Positions 21,493 through 34,343 of a stretch of 34,343 nt of DNA are shown here, piece after piece; position 1 is the first letter of the stretch; each line of letters starts with the position of its first letter. The stretch comes from a virus. Both the position numbers and the translations under genes were made by a program. Under the pieces are notes generated by a model. It ran no database searches. It was not told the origin of the DNA and worked only from the letters and a program-made list of their open reading frames with translations. The stretch covers positions 1 to 34,343 of IMG/VR virus record IMGVR_UViG_3300020192_000046. One strand, 5' to 3'.

Positions 21493-21516
21493 ATTCTCCA
21501 AAAGTGTAACGAAAAC

Positions 21517-21545
21517 TTGACAATAGATTCTCCTTCGAGTATTTT
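21517..21545 (+). promoter_or_regulatory. Sigma70-type promoter for the replication gene
   Basis: TTGACA (21517-21522), a 17-bp spacer and TATTTT (21540-21545) lie directly after the terminator. A half-site GTAAC of the operator described elsewhere occurs at 21506-21510, just upstream of the -35. Transcription would start near 21553 and leave a leader of about 110 nt. Confidence 0.65.
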
Positions 21546-21664: not shown

Positions 21665-22366
21665 ATGGATAAAAATAACAAAAAGTCTTTTTTAATATAC
21701 CTTACCTTTTACGAGGCAATAGGGGATTTCTCCAACGAAGATCTTGGACTTCTCTTTAGAGCAATCTTTCAGTACGAAATATCCGGGGAAATTATAGACT
21801 TACCTTCGCATATAAAAATGGCATTTAACTTCATAAAAATACAGCTCAAAATCGACGACAAAAAGTACTCAGAAGTAAAAGAGGCAAGGGCCGAAGCAGG
21901 TAGAAAGGGCGGATTAGCCAGTTCTCAAAAGAGATGGGGAGTTAAAGCAAAAGTAAGCAAAAGTAAGCAAAGCTTAGCAAAAGTAAGCAAAGTAACCGAT
22001 GAAGAAGAAGTTGAATGGGGAGTTAAAGCAAAAGTAAGCAAAAGTAAGCAAAGCTTAGCAAAAGTAAGCAAAGTAACCGATGAAGAAGAAGATGAAGAAG
22101 AAGATGAAGAAGAAGTTGAAGATGTTATTAAATACACAAAAAAATACTTCAAAAAAAATGCTAGAGAAATATTTGCCGAGGCACAGAAAAAATACCCAAC
22201 TAAAAACTGCAAACTTGTAATGATTGAGTTCTTAGAAGGTATTGAAATAAAGGATTATGGTTATAAGAATTATAAGCTTGCATACTTTAAGTGGATACAA
22301 AACAGTAAGCACGGTATTAATGATGTGAATACGATAGGTACAAAGTCAAAACTTGGGATAATTTAA
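21665..22366 (+). CDS. Replication protein, DUF6291-like, with internal duplicated repeat
   Basis: The 233-residue product opens with SFLIYLTFYEAIGDFSNEDLG, LLFRAIFQYEISGE and KMAFNFIKIQLKIDDKKY, and then EARAEAGRKGG, the pattern of DUF6291-like phage replication proteins. The middle carries an exact 27-residue duplication containing KAKVSKSKQSLAKVSKV, followed by a run of about 20 acidic residues. The C-terminus (KKYPTKNCKLVMIEFLEGIE, KYF/YFKWIQ-type helices) is probably a second helical domain. The duplication is encoded by 81-bp direct repeats holding 10-bp iterons, so the gene may contain the origin. It is the first gene after the late terminator and has its own promoter. Confidence 0.68.
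   Translation: MDKNNKKSFLIYLTFYEAIGDFSNEDLGLLFRAIFQYEISGEIIDLPSHIKMAFNFIKIQLKIDDKKYSEVKEARAEAGRKGGLASSQKRWGVKAKVSKSKQSLAKVSKVTDEEEVEWGVKAKVSKSKQSLAKVSKVTDEEEDEEEDEEEVEDVIKYTKKYFKKNAREIFAEAQKKYPTKNCKLVMIEFLEGIEIKDYGYKNYKLAYFKWIQNSKHGINDVNTIGTKSKLGII
21935..22096 (+). repeat. Two 81-bp direct repeats with 10-bp phased iterons
   Basis: Unit 1 (21935-22015) and unit 2 (22016-22096) are identical for at least 76 bp. Within each, AAGTAAGCAA occurs at 10-bp intervals (21951, 21961, 21981 and 22032, 22042, 22062), with diverged copies AGCTTAGCAA and AGTAACCGAT between and after them. A purine-rich GAAGAAGAAGAT run follows to about 22120. Repeats on one face of the helix inside a replication gene resemble initiator binding sites of a phage origin. 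Confidence 0.85.
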
Positions 22367-23344: not shown

Positions 23345-23373
23345 TTGACTTATTGCCACTAAAAGGTTACATT
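23345..23373 (+). promoter_or_regulatory. Early promoter with diverged operator (P1)
   Basis: TTGACT (23345-23350), a 17-bp spacer and TACATT (23368-23373) form a promoter. The 16-bp operator is GCCAC-TAAAAG-GTTAC at 23355-23370, with an intact right half overlapping the -10 box and a diverged left half. A leader with TTTATTTGTTAAATT runs to the ATG at 23408. Confidence 0.75.
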
Positions 23374-23407
23374 ATTCTATATCTATTTATTTGTTAAATT
23401 ACATCCA

Positions 23408-23698
23408 ATGTCTGATGCTAAAGAGAATCCATCCTTACTTGAAAGTGCATTTGAAAAGGAAAAAAGAGAGGTAACGAATCGAAAAACTCACCTTGAAGCC
23501 TCGAAGGATATTGTCTTAATGGCTAATATGTTAGTTCAAGGTTTAGAAGATAAGCAGATCGTCAATCGTATGGTAGAAGCTAGTCGATTCGGTTCTGATC
23601 GAAATGATTTACAAAACTGTCGTGGACTTTTAAAAGACGCGAAAGCTTTCTCTGCATGGATGGTTGCAAATAACATTAAATTCGTTAGATCAAGATAA
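23408..23698 (+). CDS. Hypothetical early protein
   Basis: The 96-residue product is helical and charged (SAFEKEKREVTNRKTHLEA, VLMANMLVQGLEDKQIVNRM, FSAWMVANNIKFVR). No family is recognised. It is the first gene behind promoter P1 and its stop overlaps the next start in TAATG, so the two are likely made together. The repressible promoter suggests an early, host-takeover or replication role. Confidence 0.65.
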   Translation: MSDAKENPSLLESAFEKEKREVTNRKTHLEASKDIVLMANMLVQGLEDKQIVNRMVEASRFGSDRNDLQNCRGLLKDAKAFSAWMVANNIKFVRSR

Positions 23699-23907
23699 TG
23701 AAGTCAATTACCGATAGAGATGTGAAAATCATAGAGTTAAAAGCTCCGCAATTTATAAAAGCTGTTGCGGAAGCGAAGAAGGCCAATGCTGAGTTAATTA
23801 TGATGTTAGATGCGTTCGCAGGTGATCCTTCTTTATTTTATAGAATATGTTGGTATGCCAACAACGAGGGTGTTGCAATAACATTAGTTCCCCCTAAAAA
23901 TACTTAA
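23698..23907 (+). CDS. Hypothetical early protein
   Basis: The 69-residue product is not recognised. It contains an amphipathic helix (PQFIKAVAEAKKANAELIMML) and a C-terminal part AFAGDPSLFYRICWYANNEG. It overlaps the previous stop by one base and is followed by a leader TTTTTACAAATTTTAT and a membrane protein gene. Confidence 0.6.
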   Translation: MKSITDRDVKIIELKAPQFIKAVAEAKKANAELIMMLDAFAGDPSLFYRICWYANNEGVAITLVPPKNT

Positions 23908-23923
23908 TTTTTACAAATTTTAT

Positions 23924-24175
23924 ATGGCAGTAAATATCAATGGTTGTTTGCCGGTAGTCGGATGGTTTATTAGTTTCCTTTATACTATCTCTTTATCTAT
24001 TCCATTCTACTTTGTGTGGAATAATCTGGCCCCTAAATATTTCTATTTCCTACCGGAAATATACCAAAATATACCATTCTGGGACTGTGTGGGATTAGCG
24101 ATAGTTATTTCAATATTAAAGTCTGTATTGTTGCCAAGTTTTAGTGTAAGTAATAACCAAGAAGTAGAGAAATGA
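23924..24175 (+). CDS. Small membrane protein, two transmembrane segments
   Basis: The 83-residue product has a hydrophobic segment at about 9-31 (PVVGWFISFLYTISLSIPFY) and a second at about 53-72 (FWDCVGLAIVISILKSVLL). The C-terminus is polar. No family is recognised. An early membrane protein of this size may act in superinfection exclusion or membrane-linked replication, but the sequence does not show which. Confidence 0.6.
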   Translation: MAVNINGCLPVVGWFISFLYTISLSIPFYFVWNNLAPKYFYFLPEIYQNIPFWDCVGLAIVISILKSVLLPSFSVSNNQEVEK

Positions 24176-24178
24176 TAG

Positions 24179-24207
24179 TTGACTTATAGTAACGATAAGG
24201 TTACAAT
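24179..24207 (+). promoter_or_regulatory. Early promoter with perfect operator (P2)
   Basis: TTGACT (24179-24184), a 17-bp spacer and TACAAT (24202-24207) form the promoter. The operator GTAAC-GATAAG-GTTAC lies at 24189-24204, a perfect inverted repeat overlapping the -10 box. It drives the short frame at 24238 and the gene at 24302. Confidence 0.85.
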
Positions 24208-24237
24208 TAGTTATGTTGAAGAAGAATCGGTACAAAA

Positions 24238-24339
24238 ATGGCAGGGGATCATGCTACTGATTATCTTGAGAATATTTTAAATACTTTTAAAAACTACACA
24301 GATGATAATGAATCAGGAACAACTGTTACAAATGGCTAA
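24238..24339 (+). CDS. Very small hypothetical protein or leader peptide
   Basis: A 33-residue frame, MAGDHATDYLENILNTF and onward, starts about 25 nt after the predicted transcript start of P2 behind GGTACAAAA. It ends inside the next gene, overlapping it by 32-38 bp. It may be a leader peptide controlling the next gene or a real micro-protein; the sequence alone cannot separate these. Confidence 0.35.
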   Translation: MAGDHATDYLENILNTFKNYTDDNESGTTVTNG

Positions 24340-24532
24340 AACCTTAGAACAAGTTGCTCAAGGCTTAGATTCTCTAAATCCTGAGTTTATCGAAGAGTTG
24401 GATAAAGCTACACAGAAGCTTGGCTTCATTATGTCTGAACGGTTATTTTCTATAACTGATCTATTTAATTTAATTAATAATCTTTCCCCCGAAGCTATCG
24501 AAAAAATTCGAGGGCCGGAATTAAGAGACTAA
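24302..24532 (+). CDS. Hypothetical early protein
   Basis: The 76-residue product is helical (QLLQMAKTLEQVAQGLDSL, FIEELDKATQKLGFIMSE) and acidic. No family is recognised. Starts at 24302 and 24308 are both possible; neither has a Shine-Dalgarno sequence. It is transcribed from P2 and followed closely by a small membrane protein gene. Confidence 0.55.
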   Translation: MIMNQEQLLQMAKTLEQVAQGLDSLNPEFIEELDKATQKLGFIMSERLFSITDLFNLINNLSPEAIEKIRGPELRD

Positions 24533-24535
24533 ATC

Positions 24536-24670
24536 ATGAAAAGACCACCAAATAAATTTGAAAAACTAATGGCTTATATTTTCGTTGCTGTGGTATTTGC
24601 TATTGTAATAGTAATTTTACTCGGTGTTTTAAAGGGTGCTATAAACTTCTTTTTCCCTCCTTATTATTGA
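24536..24670 (+). CDS. Single-pass small membrane protein
   Basis: A 44-residue frame encodes MKRPPNKFEKLMAY, then a strong transmembrane helix (IFVAVVFAIVIVILLGVL), and ends NFFFPPYY. The positive N-terminus suggests an N-in orientation. Its TGA stop (24668-24670) forms part of the TTGACA of the next promoter. No family is recognised. Confidence 0.6.
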   Translation: MKRPPNKFEKLMAYIFVAVVFAIVIVILLGVLKGAINFFFPPYY

Positions 24671-24695
24671 CATACTGTAACTAAAAGGTTACACT
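24667..24695 (+). promoter_or_regulatory. Early promoter with perfect operator (P3), drives ERF
   Basis: TTGACA (24667-24672), a 17-bp spacer and TACACT (24690-24695). The operator GTAAC-TAAAAG-GTTAC lies at 24677-24692. ACTAAAAGGTTACA (14 bp) is identical to the same stretch in P1, although the genes behind them are unrelated. An A/U-rich leader TATATTATTTATTAAAC leads to the ATG. Confidence 0.85.
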
Positions 24696-24725
24696 CTAGT
24701 ATATTATTTATTAAACTAACTATAT

Positions 24726-25508
24726 ATGGGAGATAAAACTCAACCTGAGGCAAAACCTAAACAGGTAGATTATCCTCAAAATAAGCTTTATGAAGCTTTG
24801 TTTAAGTTCCAAGGGAAAGCGTTAAATATTTCAAAGACAACAAAGGGTTATGGTTATATGTATGCGGCTCTTGATTCCGTAGCAGATGCTATAAGACCGG
24901 TTCTTCAGGAATGCGATCTTATGTATATGCAATTCTTTAAAGGAGATAATAGCAAATTTGTAACTCGAGTGATTCATGTACCTTCTGGTCAAATGAGAGA
25001 TACTGAATTAGAAATATCCAAACTTGATGCCTCTGCAGGAAAGATGAACAGTTTACAGGCGTTAGGGGCCACAATTACTTACATTAGAAGATATACTTTA
25101 ATGTTAGCTTTAGGGTTGATTACCGAAGAAGATACTGACGGGACTGTAGAGTCTAAGCAAGAGACTAAAAAACCATATCCTACAAAAACACAACAAGCAC
25201 CAGCACAGAGGCCGACCCCGGCTCCAAAAGTGGATCAGGCTGAACTAGCTCTTGCAACTAAAATGATGAAGTCTTACGAGGTGAAGATTGCACAGATAGA
25301 GAACCTAGATGCCTTAGAAGAAACTCGAGCGAACTTCGAAACTTATGTGAAGGATCCAAAACAACCATTTACAGAAAAACAGGTTCAGGAATTGAGACGA
25401 TTGCTAGACAATAGACACGCTACTCTACAATCATTAGAGGCGAATTTAGTAGAAGATGACAGCGAAGATGTGAGCCTTACACAAGAGGAGATGGATGCGA
25501 TACAATAA
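24726..25508 (+). CDS. erf: ERF-family single-strand annealing protein
   Basis: The 260-residue product has the ERF superfamily core: YPQNKLYEALFKFQGKAL, GYGYMYAALDSVADAIRPVL at about 41-60, then HVPSGQMRDTEL at 84-95 and MNSLQALGATITYIRRYTL at 107-124, with LGLITEEDTDG following. ERF proteins anneal homologous single strands during phage recombination and genome circularisation. Residues 145-175 are a Pro/Gln/Lys linker (KPYPTKTQQAPAQRPTPAP), followed by a helical C-terminal domain that is less conserved and may bind partners. It is transcribed from P3 and could be repressed by the regulator encoded at 25880. Confidence 0.92.
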   Translation: MGDKTQPEAKPKQVDYPQNKLYEALFKFQGKALNISKTTKGYGYMYAALDSVADAIRPVLQECDLMYMQFFKGDNSKFVTRVIHVPSGQMRDTELEISKLDASAGKMNSLQALGATITYIRRYTLMLALGLITEEDTDGTVESKQETKKPYPTKTQQAPAQRPTPAPKVDQAELALATKMMKSYEVKIAQIENLDALEETRANFETYVKDPKQPFTEKQVQELRRLLDNRHATLQSLEANLVEDDSEDVSLTQEEMDAIQ

Positions 25509-25531
25509 TTTATTTTTATTATTTAAACTAA

Positions 25532-25843
25532 ATGGAAAAAGCATTGAAAAGAATAGGGGATACCTTGGACTCCATCCTTCAGGGTTTTTATATAAGATTT
25601 ATAGACCCTATTCGGAAGGCACGAAGAGCAAGTAGGAAAGCAAAAAGGAGAGCTATTATCATACAGGCGAAGGGTGAAATTTTAGAAACCTTCGAACCAT
25701 TTTTAATGTCCGTTTATAACGAGGCTGTACGAGACTATGAACAGGCAAGAACACAAAGGACGCACTATCATAATGAGGCAACATCCGAACTAAGAAAGTT
25801 TTTTGAAATTAAAATCAAGAGCTTCATTTCGGGTAACGAATAG
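25532..25843 (+). CDS. Hypothetical basic protein
   Basis: The 103-residue product carries a very basic stretch KARRASRKAKRRAIIIQAK at about residues 28-46, then a charged coiled-coil-like helix (YNEAVRDYEQARTQRTHYH). Nucleic-acid binding is plausible but no family is recognised. It follows the ERF gene with a leader TTTATTTTTATTATTTAAAC and ends just before promoter P5, whose -10 region overlaps the stop. Confidence 0.55.
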   Translation: MEKALKRIGDTLDSILQGFYIRFIDPIRKARRASRKAKRRAIIIQAKGEILETFEPFLMSVYNEAVRDYEQARTQRTHYHNEATSELRKFFEIKIKSFISGNE

Positions 25844-25851
25844 GTTACAAT
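25823..25851 (+). promoter_or_regulatory. Promoter with perfect operator (P5) for the XRE regulator
   Basis: TACAAT lies at 25846-25851, with the operator GTAAC-GAATAG-GTTAC at 25833-25848 overlapping it, and a weak -35, TTCATT (25823-25828), 17 bp upstream. It precedes the HTH gene at 25880, so the regulator may control itself. The weak -35 would suit low basal expression. Confidence 0.7.
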
Positions 25852-25879: not shown

Positions 25880-26131
25880 ATGGAGGACTACAAAGCCAAA
25901 GTTGAATTATTTCTTCAGCATATGGAGGAAGAATTAGACAAACAAAAGGTCTCCATTTCTGAGCTATCGAGAAGGATCAAAATTCCTAGAAAAACTATTT
26001 ATAGTTGGTTAAACGGTGAAACTACAATGAGATTAGATAACTATTATAAAATTTTATCTGCCCTTGGATTGGAGGACAGCGTTTATAGCATCGAAAATGG
26101 AAAAACTACCGAAGAAACTGGAAAAAATTAG
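25880..26131 (+). CDS. XRE-family helix-turn-helix regulator, candidate repressor
   Basis: The 83-residue product is a compact HTH protein. Residues 26-47 read SISELSRRIKIPRKTIYSWL, with the Cro/CI-type turn between helices 2 and 3, and a short amphipathic C-terminal region. It lacks the C-terminal dimerisation or autocleavage domain of CI-type proteins. The upstream ATG at 25850 overlaps the -10 box of P5, so the ATG at 25880 is chosen, about 20 nt downstream of the predicted transcript start. It is the best candidate to bind the GTAAC-N6-GTTAC operators. It overlaps the next gene by 35 bp. Confidence 0.8.
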   Translation: MEDYKAKVELFLQHMEEELDKQKVSISELSRRIKIPRKTIYSWLNGETTMRLDNYYKILSALGLEDSVYSIENGKTTEETGKN

Positions 26132-26336
26132 CCCCAAGATATCAATCCTCGACAAAGCGAAAGAGGCTTATATTCACGAGCAAACAGTAACGAGTGAGTG
26201 GAAAAGAACTAAAAAAGAGGCAGAGGATGTATGGAGCTTTGGTATGAATTGGTTCTGGTTCATAGCAAATTTATACAACCAGCAAGTTAAAGAACATAAC
26301 AAAAAGCCCGAGGATGGAGAAGTGGCATCTCGCTAA
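26097..26336 (+). CDS. Hypothetical protein ending inside the tRNA gene
   Basis: The 79-residue product is not recognised. It is Lys/Glu-rich with an aromatic stretch VWSFGMNWFWFIANLYNQQ near residue 50. Its final eight codons (EDGEVASR) and stop lie inside the tRNA gene (26308-26379). The frame is open back to a TTG at 26064, but the ATG at 26097 is preferred. If the tRNA is processed from this transcript, the message would lose its end. This makes the annotation of the gene, or at least its 3' end, somewhat uncertain. Confidence 0.5.
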   Translation: MEKLPKKLEKISPKISILDKAKEAYIHEQTVTSEWKRTKKEAEDVWSFGMNWFWFIANLYNQQVKEHNKKPEDGEVASR

Positions 26337-26379
26337 GCTCATAACTTAGAGATCGTGGGTTCGATACCCACTCCTCGAA
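26308..26379 (+). tRNA. tRNA with anticodon CAT (Met or Ile2)
   Basis: All arms can be folded. Acceptor CCGAGGA with TCCTCGA pairs 6 of 7, with a C-A mismatch at position 1-72. D stem GAGA/TCTC encloses AGTGGCA. The anticodon stem is CTAAG/CTTAG with loop CTCATAA, anticodon CAT at 26340-26342 after T33. T stem GTGGG/CCCAC holds the loop TTCGATA. The discriminator is A and CCA is not encoded. The C1-A72 mismatch is a hallmark of bacterial initiator tRNA, but the three G-C pairs of an initiator anticodon stem are missing. It could be elongator Met, initiator-like or, with C34 modified to lysidine, Ile2. Confidence 0.88.
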
Positions 26380-32956: not shown

Positions 32957-33145
32957 TAGTTATGTAGATAGGACAGTGAACCATACAATCTGGGGACTGA
33001 CGGCCGTATAAAGGAGCTTTAAAACTCCCGCTCAAAAAGAGTGGTTAACTCTAAGTTAATCAGGTTGTTGTAGGCAGACAACCGGCTGTCCCAAAAGGGA
33101 ACCAGACCAATAACCTGTGAGTCAAACCTCACTACTACATAACTA
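32957..33145 (+). ncRNA. Large structured RNA, unknown class (candidate)
   Basis: TAGTTATGTAG (32957-32967) pairs perfectly with CTACATAACTA (33135-33145), closing a 189-nt domain. Inside, GGACAG (32971-32976) pairs with CTGTCC (33086-33091). It encloses hairpins GGAG/CTCC (33013-33028), AGAGT/ACTCT (33038-33052) and GGTTGT/ACAACC (33063-33083). Outside it lies hairpin GTGAG/CTCAC (33117-33132). Alternatives exist: TCCC/GGGA (33089-33100) competes with the GGACAG helix, and CAGGTT (33061-33066) can pair with AACCTG (33112-33117). There is no protein frame of note and no poly-U terminator. It matches no riboswitch, tmRNA, RNase P, group I or retron RNA that I recognise. Confidence 0.7.
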
Positions 33146-33182
33146 CTAGTTCTTAAGCTAATTTATTTTTTATTTTATTAAC

Positions 33183-33522: not shown

Positions 33523-33551
33523 TTGACTTAGGTGGTACAAAAAGGTAACAT
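33523..33551 (+). promoter_or_regulatory. Promoter with diverged operator (P4)
   Basis: TTGACT (33523-33528), a 17-bp spacer and TAACAT (33546-33551). The operator-like sequence GGTAC-AAAAAG-GTAAC at 33534-33549 keeps the position and spacer of the GTAAC-N6-GTTAC sites but has diverged halves. The gene at 33578 starts 26 bp downstream of the -10 box. Confidence 0.55.
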
Positions 33552-34248: not shown

Positions 34249-34343
34249 ATGGAAATAAAGGAAGTTCCAATTAGCGAACTAAAGTTCGCCGAATATAATC
34301 CAAGAATAATCACCCGGGACGAATTTTCCGGTCTGAAGAATAG
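34249..34343 (+). CDS. ParB-like protein, N-terminal end (partial at window edge)
   Basis: The frame starts at ATG 34249 and runs off the window after 31 codons. It reads MEIKEVPISELKFAEYNPR and then TRDEFSGLKN, the start of the ParB/Srx-like domain found at the N-terminus of many phage ParB-DNA methyltransferase fusions. The first base block of the window encodes the C-terminal end of such a methyltransferase, so the two probably belong to one gene. The function is DNA methylation, perhaps to resist host restriction. Confidence 0.75.
   Translation, partial: MEIKEVPISELKFAEYNPRIITRDEFSGLKN

Follow-up and report, generated by a model that had tools for sequence, protein, structure and literature searches.

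A candidate XRE operator, GTAAC-N6-GTTAC, at the early promoters of a probable Patescibacteria phage

In the window, by which we mean the whole stretch of 34,343 nucleotides under analysis, the five best matches to a GTAAC-N6-GTTAC palindrome coincide with five early promoters, one of which belongs to the gene of an 83-residue XRE-family protein. Judged from the arrangement of the sequence, it is rather likely that this protein binds the five sites, represses the early genes and regulates its own transcription in a Cro-like manner. An autoregulated repressor with its regulon had been proposed in a first-pass annotation, and it appears to be the best reading, because the sites lie in the promoter spacer or over the -35 box, one of them is located in the XRE promoter, and the same palindrome is found in the same register at other XRE loci.

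Patescibacteria are a large bacterial group with few cultured members; to our knowledge, no regulon of a Patescibacteria phage has been characterised, and gene control in this group of viruses is almost unstudied. For one probable Patescibacteria phage, the window gives a candidate operator with its putative repressor and targets, in a concrete and testable form. The operator type is already known for XRE proteins, and the novelty lies in the regulon and in the host group. Furthermore, the promoter-embedded palindrome offers a handle for finding XRE regulons in unannotated viral contigs.

Candidate operator sites in the window

Three exact copies of the palindrome, all placed correctly by the first-pass annotation, occur inside 1.7 kb (Table 1), while dinucleotide-preserving shuffles contain 0.02 per window on average and one at most. 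A symmetric 16-bp matrix was made from these three sites and used to score every position of the 34 kb. The perfect sites score 21-22.5 and are followed by 21506 (12.61) and 23355 (12.39), with the next best position at 9.36. The whole-window scan that had been proposed as a check thereby returns, as its top five sites, the promoters of the replication-type gene, the hypothetical operon, the small gene pair, the ERF gene and the XRE gene.

Table 1. Predicted promoters, operators and associated genes, with window coordinates.
Feature	Coordinates	Strand	Basis or position
Diverged operator (predicted), GTAACGAAAACTTGAC	21506..21521	.	over -35 of P21517; matrix rank 4
Promoter TTGACA-17-TATTTT	21517..21545	+	upstream of DUF6291 gene 21665-22366
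Promoter TTGACT-17-TACATT	23345..23373	+	upstream of hypothetical genes 23408-24175
Diverged operator (predicted), GCCACTAAAAGGTTAC	23355..23370	.	in P23345; matrix rank 5
Promoter TTGACT-17-TACAAT	24179..24207	+	upstream of small gene pair 24302-24670
Perfect operator (predicted), GTAACGATAAGGTTAC	24189..24204	.	between -35 and -10 of P24179
Promoter TTGACA-17-TACACT	24667..24695	+	upstream of ERF gene
Perfect operator (predicted), GTAACTAAAAGGTTAC	24677..24692	.	between -35 and -10 of P24667 (ERF promoter)
ERF single-strand annealing protein gene	24726..25508	+	Pfam ERF 1.3e-20; PHROGs 8e-31
XRE gene promoter, weak -35 TTCATT, 17 bp, TACAAT	25823..25851	+	direct reading
Perfect operator (predicted), GTAACGAATAGGTTAC	25833..25848	.	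in XRE gene promoter
XRE (HTH_3) regulator gene, 83 residues, proposed repressor	25880..26131	+	Pfam, AlphaFold model
Small gene overlapping XRE gene end	26097..26336	+	scanned via longer frame 26064-26336; no family match

The right arm of the palindrome has TAC in common with the -10 box, and the likeness between sites is in part promoter consensus. Since promoters and matrix have bases in common, a null conditioned on the promoter was used as well. Given a promoter, a score of at least 12.39 has a probability of 7e-4 for a random spacer and of 2e-5 for random sequence upstream of TTGAC. Unconditioned, a shuffled window is expected to contain 0.5 scores of this size; at least two occur in 11% of shuffles, and five in 0.2%. 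Three recurrences of some AT-rich 5-bp arm are common in shuffles, so that the weight of the observation rests on the rarity of the GTAAC arm, the clustering of the sites and their promoter register.

Several details of the first-pass annotation were reproduced exactly, namely the TTGAC boxes at 23345, 24179, 24667 and 33523 with their 17-bp spacing to the -10 hexamers (TACATT, TACAAT, TACACT and TAACAT, respectively) and the A-rich N6 ending in AG at all five places it had named. The two diverged copies it listed fared differently: the one at 23355 is retained, and the one at 33534-33549 (GGTACAAAAAGGTAAC) is rejected as an operator, having three arm mismatches, lying one base out of register and ranking 23rd with a score of 5.98. 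The region at 33523/33534 is a plausible promoter for which the operator reading is unsupported. What had been described as a GTAAC half-site at 21506, beside the replication promoter, does lie at that promoter, where it forms an imperfect whole site over the -35 rather than the -10 box. Accordingly, the Cys-rich gene (33578) that had been assigned to the regulon should be dropped from it, and the replication-type gene (21665) should be added.

The left arm of the 25833 site lies within the final codons of the preceding gene. The small early genes gave no family match in the scans. Within the DUF6291 gene, WGVKAKVSKSKQSLAKVSKVTDEE occurs twice as an in-frame duplication, and there is also an acidic run. 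Across the window, gene starts mostly have no Shine-Dalgarno sequence and show instead T- and A-rich stretches, for example TTATTAA or GTTAAAT, 10-20 bases upstream.

The XRE protein and its neighbours

The protein has a Cro/C1-type HTH domain, as indicated by Pfam matches to HTH_3 (34.2 bits, cut-off 23) and HTH_26 (32, cut-off 22), and its AlphaFold model has a pLDDT above 90 over the HTH. By structure comparison the model matches many XRE proteins at Z of about 9, and with matches less than 1 Z unit apart counted as tied, the high ones include C.Esp1396I (Z 9.4, 72 residues, 2.9 A) and SinR (Z 9.2, 66 residues, 1.9 A). C.BclI is, like C.Esp1396I, among the closest folds, and in sequence the protein is weakly similar to HipB antitoxins. 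The recognition-helix arginine R37 is common to the proteins of the window and of the viral loci L111, L107, L019 and L016; since XRE proteins often have an arginine at that position, this is given little weight. In C.Esp1396I, R35 is one of the residues that read bases (PMC4041747).

Among the non-structural proteins scanned, no second HTH regulator was found, and neither neighbour of the XRE gene (25532-25843 and 26064/26097-26336) matches a toxin family. An alternative start of the XRE gene at 25850 is unlikely because it precedes the expected start of transcription. A tRNA-Met (CAT) gene, 26308-26379, overlaps the end of the small open reading frame 26097-26336.

The same palindrome in other viruses and bacteria

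The composite TTGAC-N5-GTAAC-N6-GTTACA was found in 49 stretches of viral contigs, as against 15 for a control with the left arm reversed. It continues as TACAAT at 16 of 33 distinct palindromic sites, many of them ahead of gene starts, and at none of the 15 controls. Four of the 33 (L111, L006, L149 and L007) are placed immediately upstream of an XRE gene or of an XRE-antitoxin operon, a proportion that by itself does not differ significantly from the 0/15 of the controls. The L111 locus, an immunity region, carries two divergent XRE genes and extra near-copies of the palindrome, along with one integrase-like and one metallopeptidase-like gene. In L006 the palindrome stands before a toxin-antitoxin operon with a Gp49-like toxin and an HI1420-like antitoxin, in L149 a related antitoxin lies about 310 bp downstream of the site, and in L007 an XRE gene adjoins it.

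In 380 Patescibacteria genomes, the composite promoter-palindrome occurs four times. Three of these occurrences represent a single shared site upstream of a small gene resembling translation initiation factor IF-1; the fourth is TTGACTTATTGTAACTTATAAGTTACAAT in G409, followed by a Gp49-like toxin, which is split, and by an HTH_3 antitoxin. The L111 immunity region and the Gp49/XRE operons of L006, L149 and G409 have the palindrome of the window in the same promoter register, whereas the elements themselves are unrelated, with protein identity as low as about 20%; L111 differs further in its integrase-like gene and its divergent second repressor. Taken together, these loci suggest that XRE proteins of phages and toxin-antitoxin operons recurrently use GTAAC-N6-GTTAC, placed between -35 and -10, as their operator. 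In other viral contigs, the majority of palindromic promoters lack a nearby XRE gene, and the palindrome thus also occurs outside an XRE partnership.

Relatives of the regulatory genes were sparse. In IMG/VR, the XRE, ERF and DUF6291 proteins had no close relatives beyond a partial contig of the same phage, no phage relative with the same XRE gene was found, and the 380 Patescibacteria genomes yielded one weak match to the XRE protein. A small custom profile detected no XRE genes in terminase-related phages, and Pfam HTH_3 had no match in the terminase-related G007 and G009-G012.

Two recurrent promoter families of the form TTGAC-N5-GTAAC-N6-GTTACA were observed without a nearby XRE gene, one in L116, L124, L132, L134, L142 and L150, the other in L120, L125, L126, L131, L136 and L151. 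Terminase-related phages (L087 7000-9650, L089 4648-8100, L096 6398-13311) have repeated promoters with shared spacer words of their own, about ATAATACAWTCAT in L087 and L089; in many of these promoters an ATG follows about 6 bases after the -10 box, which suggests leaderless mRNAs.

Comparison with known systems

Operators of XRE proteins over promoters are a textbook design, and no published operator of exactly the GTAAC-N6-GTTAC form was found in the open-access literature searched. The Cro and CI proteins of lambda, 434 and P22 are likewise small XRE-fold dimers, as is expected here, with palindromic operators over early promoters and autoregulation. In contrast to these phages, the window has no divergent cI/cro pair with shared operators, since it holds a single XRE gene and its early genes are all on one strand, and it has no integrase; each of its predicted operators is a lone site, distributed among five promoters of the same direction, and sequence identity is negligible.

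The operator of the restriction-modification controller C.Csp231I, CTAAG-N5-CTTAG with A-rich spacers, shares with the window the XRE protein, the 5-bp arms, the A-rich spacers and a site in the regulator's own promoter (PMC4321490). It differs in its arms, its spacer length and its two sites per promoter; the window has one site per promoter, no linked restriction genes and no restriction-system endonuclease, and the methyltransferase at its ends stands alone. The XRE antitoxin HigA of P. aeruginosa has an operator whose arms (TTAAC/GTTAA) are close to GTAAC/GTTAC, and it binds other promoters besides its own (PMC6987408). Each HigA site takes two cooperating dimers, however, and the XRE gene of the window has no adjacent HigB-type toxin nor any other toxin of a known family, as would be found in HigBA, HipBA or HI1419/HI1420 systems.

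Proposed regulation and alternatives

The centres of the operator half-sites are 11 bp apart, and an XRE dimer on GTAAC-N6-GTTAC would place its two recognition helices in successive major grooves on the same side of the helix. Bound in this way at four of the promoters, it would span about -25 to -10 and occupy the spacer together with the first bases of the -10 box; at the replication-type promoter it would lie over the -35 box. In either position it would exclude RNA polymerase. The XRE promoter combines a perfect site with a poor -35 box and is predicted to give low, self-limited expression. As the protein accumulates after infection, it would lower its own synthesis and that of the replication-type protein, the small hypothetical genes and the ERF recombinase, with the perfect sites occupied first and the diverged ones later, as for Cro. 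We infer binding by the XRE protein, repression as opposed to activation, the timing and the graded affinity alike.

The sites might instead represent only a class of strong early promoters (TTGAC, A-rich spacer, AAGGTTACA) for the host RNA polymerase with no repressor involved, and indeed AAGG before TTACA is common to all named promoters, even where the left arm is lost. We regard this as unlikely, as the left arm, though not part of the sigma hexamers, is perfect at three sites as an inverted match to the right arm, the palindrome at 25833 is perfect despite an almost absent -35 box, and non-palindromic controls elsewhere fail to mark promoters. A host regulator, rather than the phage XRE protein, could also be the ligand, given that the same promoter-operator precedes a toxin-antitoxin operon in a Patescibacteria genome. 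In the 380 genomes, however, the motif is rare and usually within genes, and three Patescibacteria MAGs and one Omnitrophota MAG (0.7 to 2.7 Mb) contain zero or one perfect palindrome each; a host regulon was rejected because of this rarity, and binding by a host protein is very improbable.

Other alternatives accept the XRE protein as the ligand and assign it another role. The main functional rival to the Cro-like reading is that it serves as a maintenance repressor by which the phage stays dormant without integration (plasmid-like) or is conditionally lysogenic. One repressor would then span replication, recombination and its own gene, and a survey called groundwater Patescibacteria phages mostly temperate (PMC12911398). 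Neither an integrase nor a divergent second repressor is present in the window, genes for partition or replicon maintenance were not recognised, and the repressor gene sits within a one-strand string of genes, all of which makes such a role improbable. Equally doubtful is the proposal that, in an integrase-less Patescibacteria phage, an XRE master switch holds a dormant, non-integrated state through the kind of operator used by XRE antitoxins of its host group. An activator-repressor resembling the restriction-modification controllers, whose operators have the same form (PMC4321490) and two of which, C.Esp1396I and C.BclI, are among the closest folds, is a slim prospect: activation requires a site upstream of -35, while those of the window are mostly in the spacer between the two boxes, with only one in the XRE promoter. 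Lastly, the XRE gene and the overlapping gene 26097-26336 might form a toxin-antitoxin pair with the remaining sites as side targets of the antitoxin. The gene overlap, the weak HipB likeness and the use of the palindrome by XRE antitoxins elsewhere would fit; the 26097-26336 product matches neither a toxin nor any other family, and we hold this pairing to be extremely unlikely.

Host, genome ends and other gene clusters

The terminase has its matches to cellular contigs in a Patescibacteria MAG (50%), Omnitrophota (44%), Falkowbacteria (32%), which belong to Patescibacteria, a second Patescibacteria MAG (31%) and Akkermansia (27%). From these matches, the host is probably an ultra-small member of the Patescibacteria.

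At its start the window codes for the C-terminus of a DNA methyltransferase and at its end for the N-terminus of an adenine methyltransferase; positions 1-140 and 34249-34343 are both ends of one ParB/adenine methyltransferase. A full-length relative measures 1257 bp, which, with the split gene, indicates that about 1.0 kb is missing and that the genome, of roughly 35 kb, is near complete. In this sequence, about 1 kb short of complete, Phage_integrase (tyrosine integrase) had no match, and none of the large early proteins lacks an assignment, as a serine integrase might. With so little of the genome outside the window, the remark of the first-pass annotation that no integrase is seen gains in strength, and the absence is probably real. 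The phage is also represented by another contig, G005 (22 kb, 99.98% identical over 12 kb), whose cut falls at precisely the same position as that of the window; this 22-kb contig breaks within the DUF6291 gene.

Between 27328 and 32956, four or five glycosyltransferase-like genes and an FkbM-type methyltransferase occupy about 5.6 kb of the 35-kb phage, perhaps for the modification of host surface or virion glycans. They are followed by a gap of about 225 bp (32957-33182) with no large open reading frame and no Rfam match, which contains several short inverted words and could encode a structured RNA.
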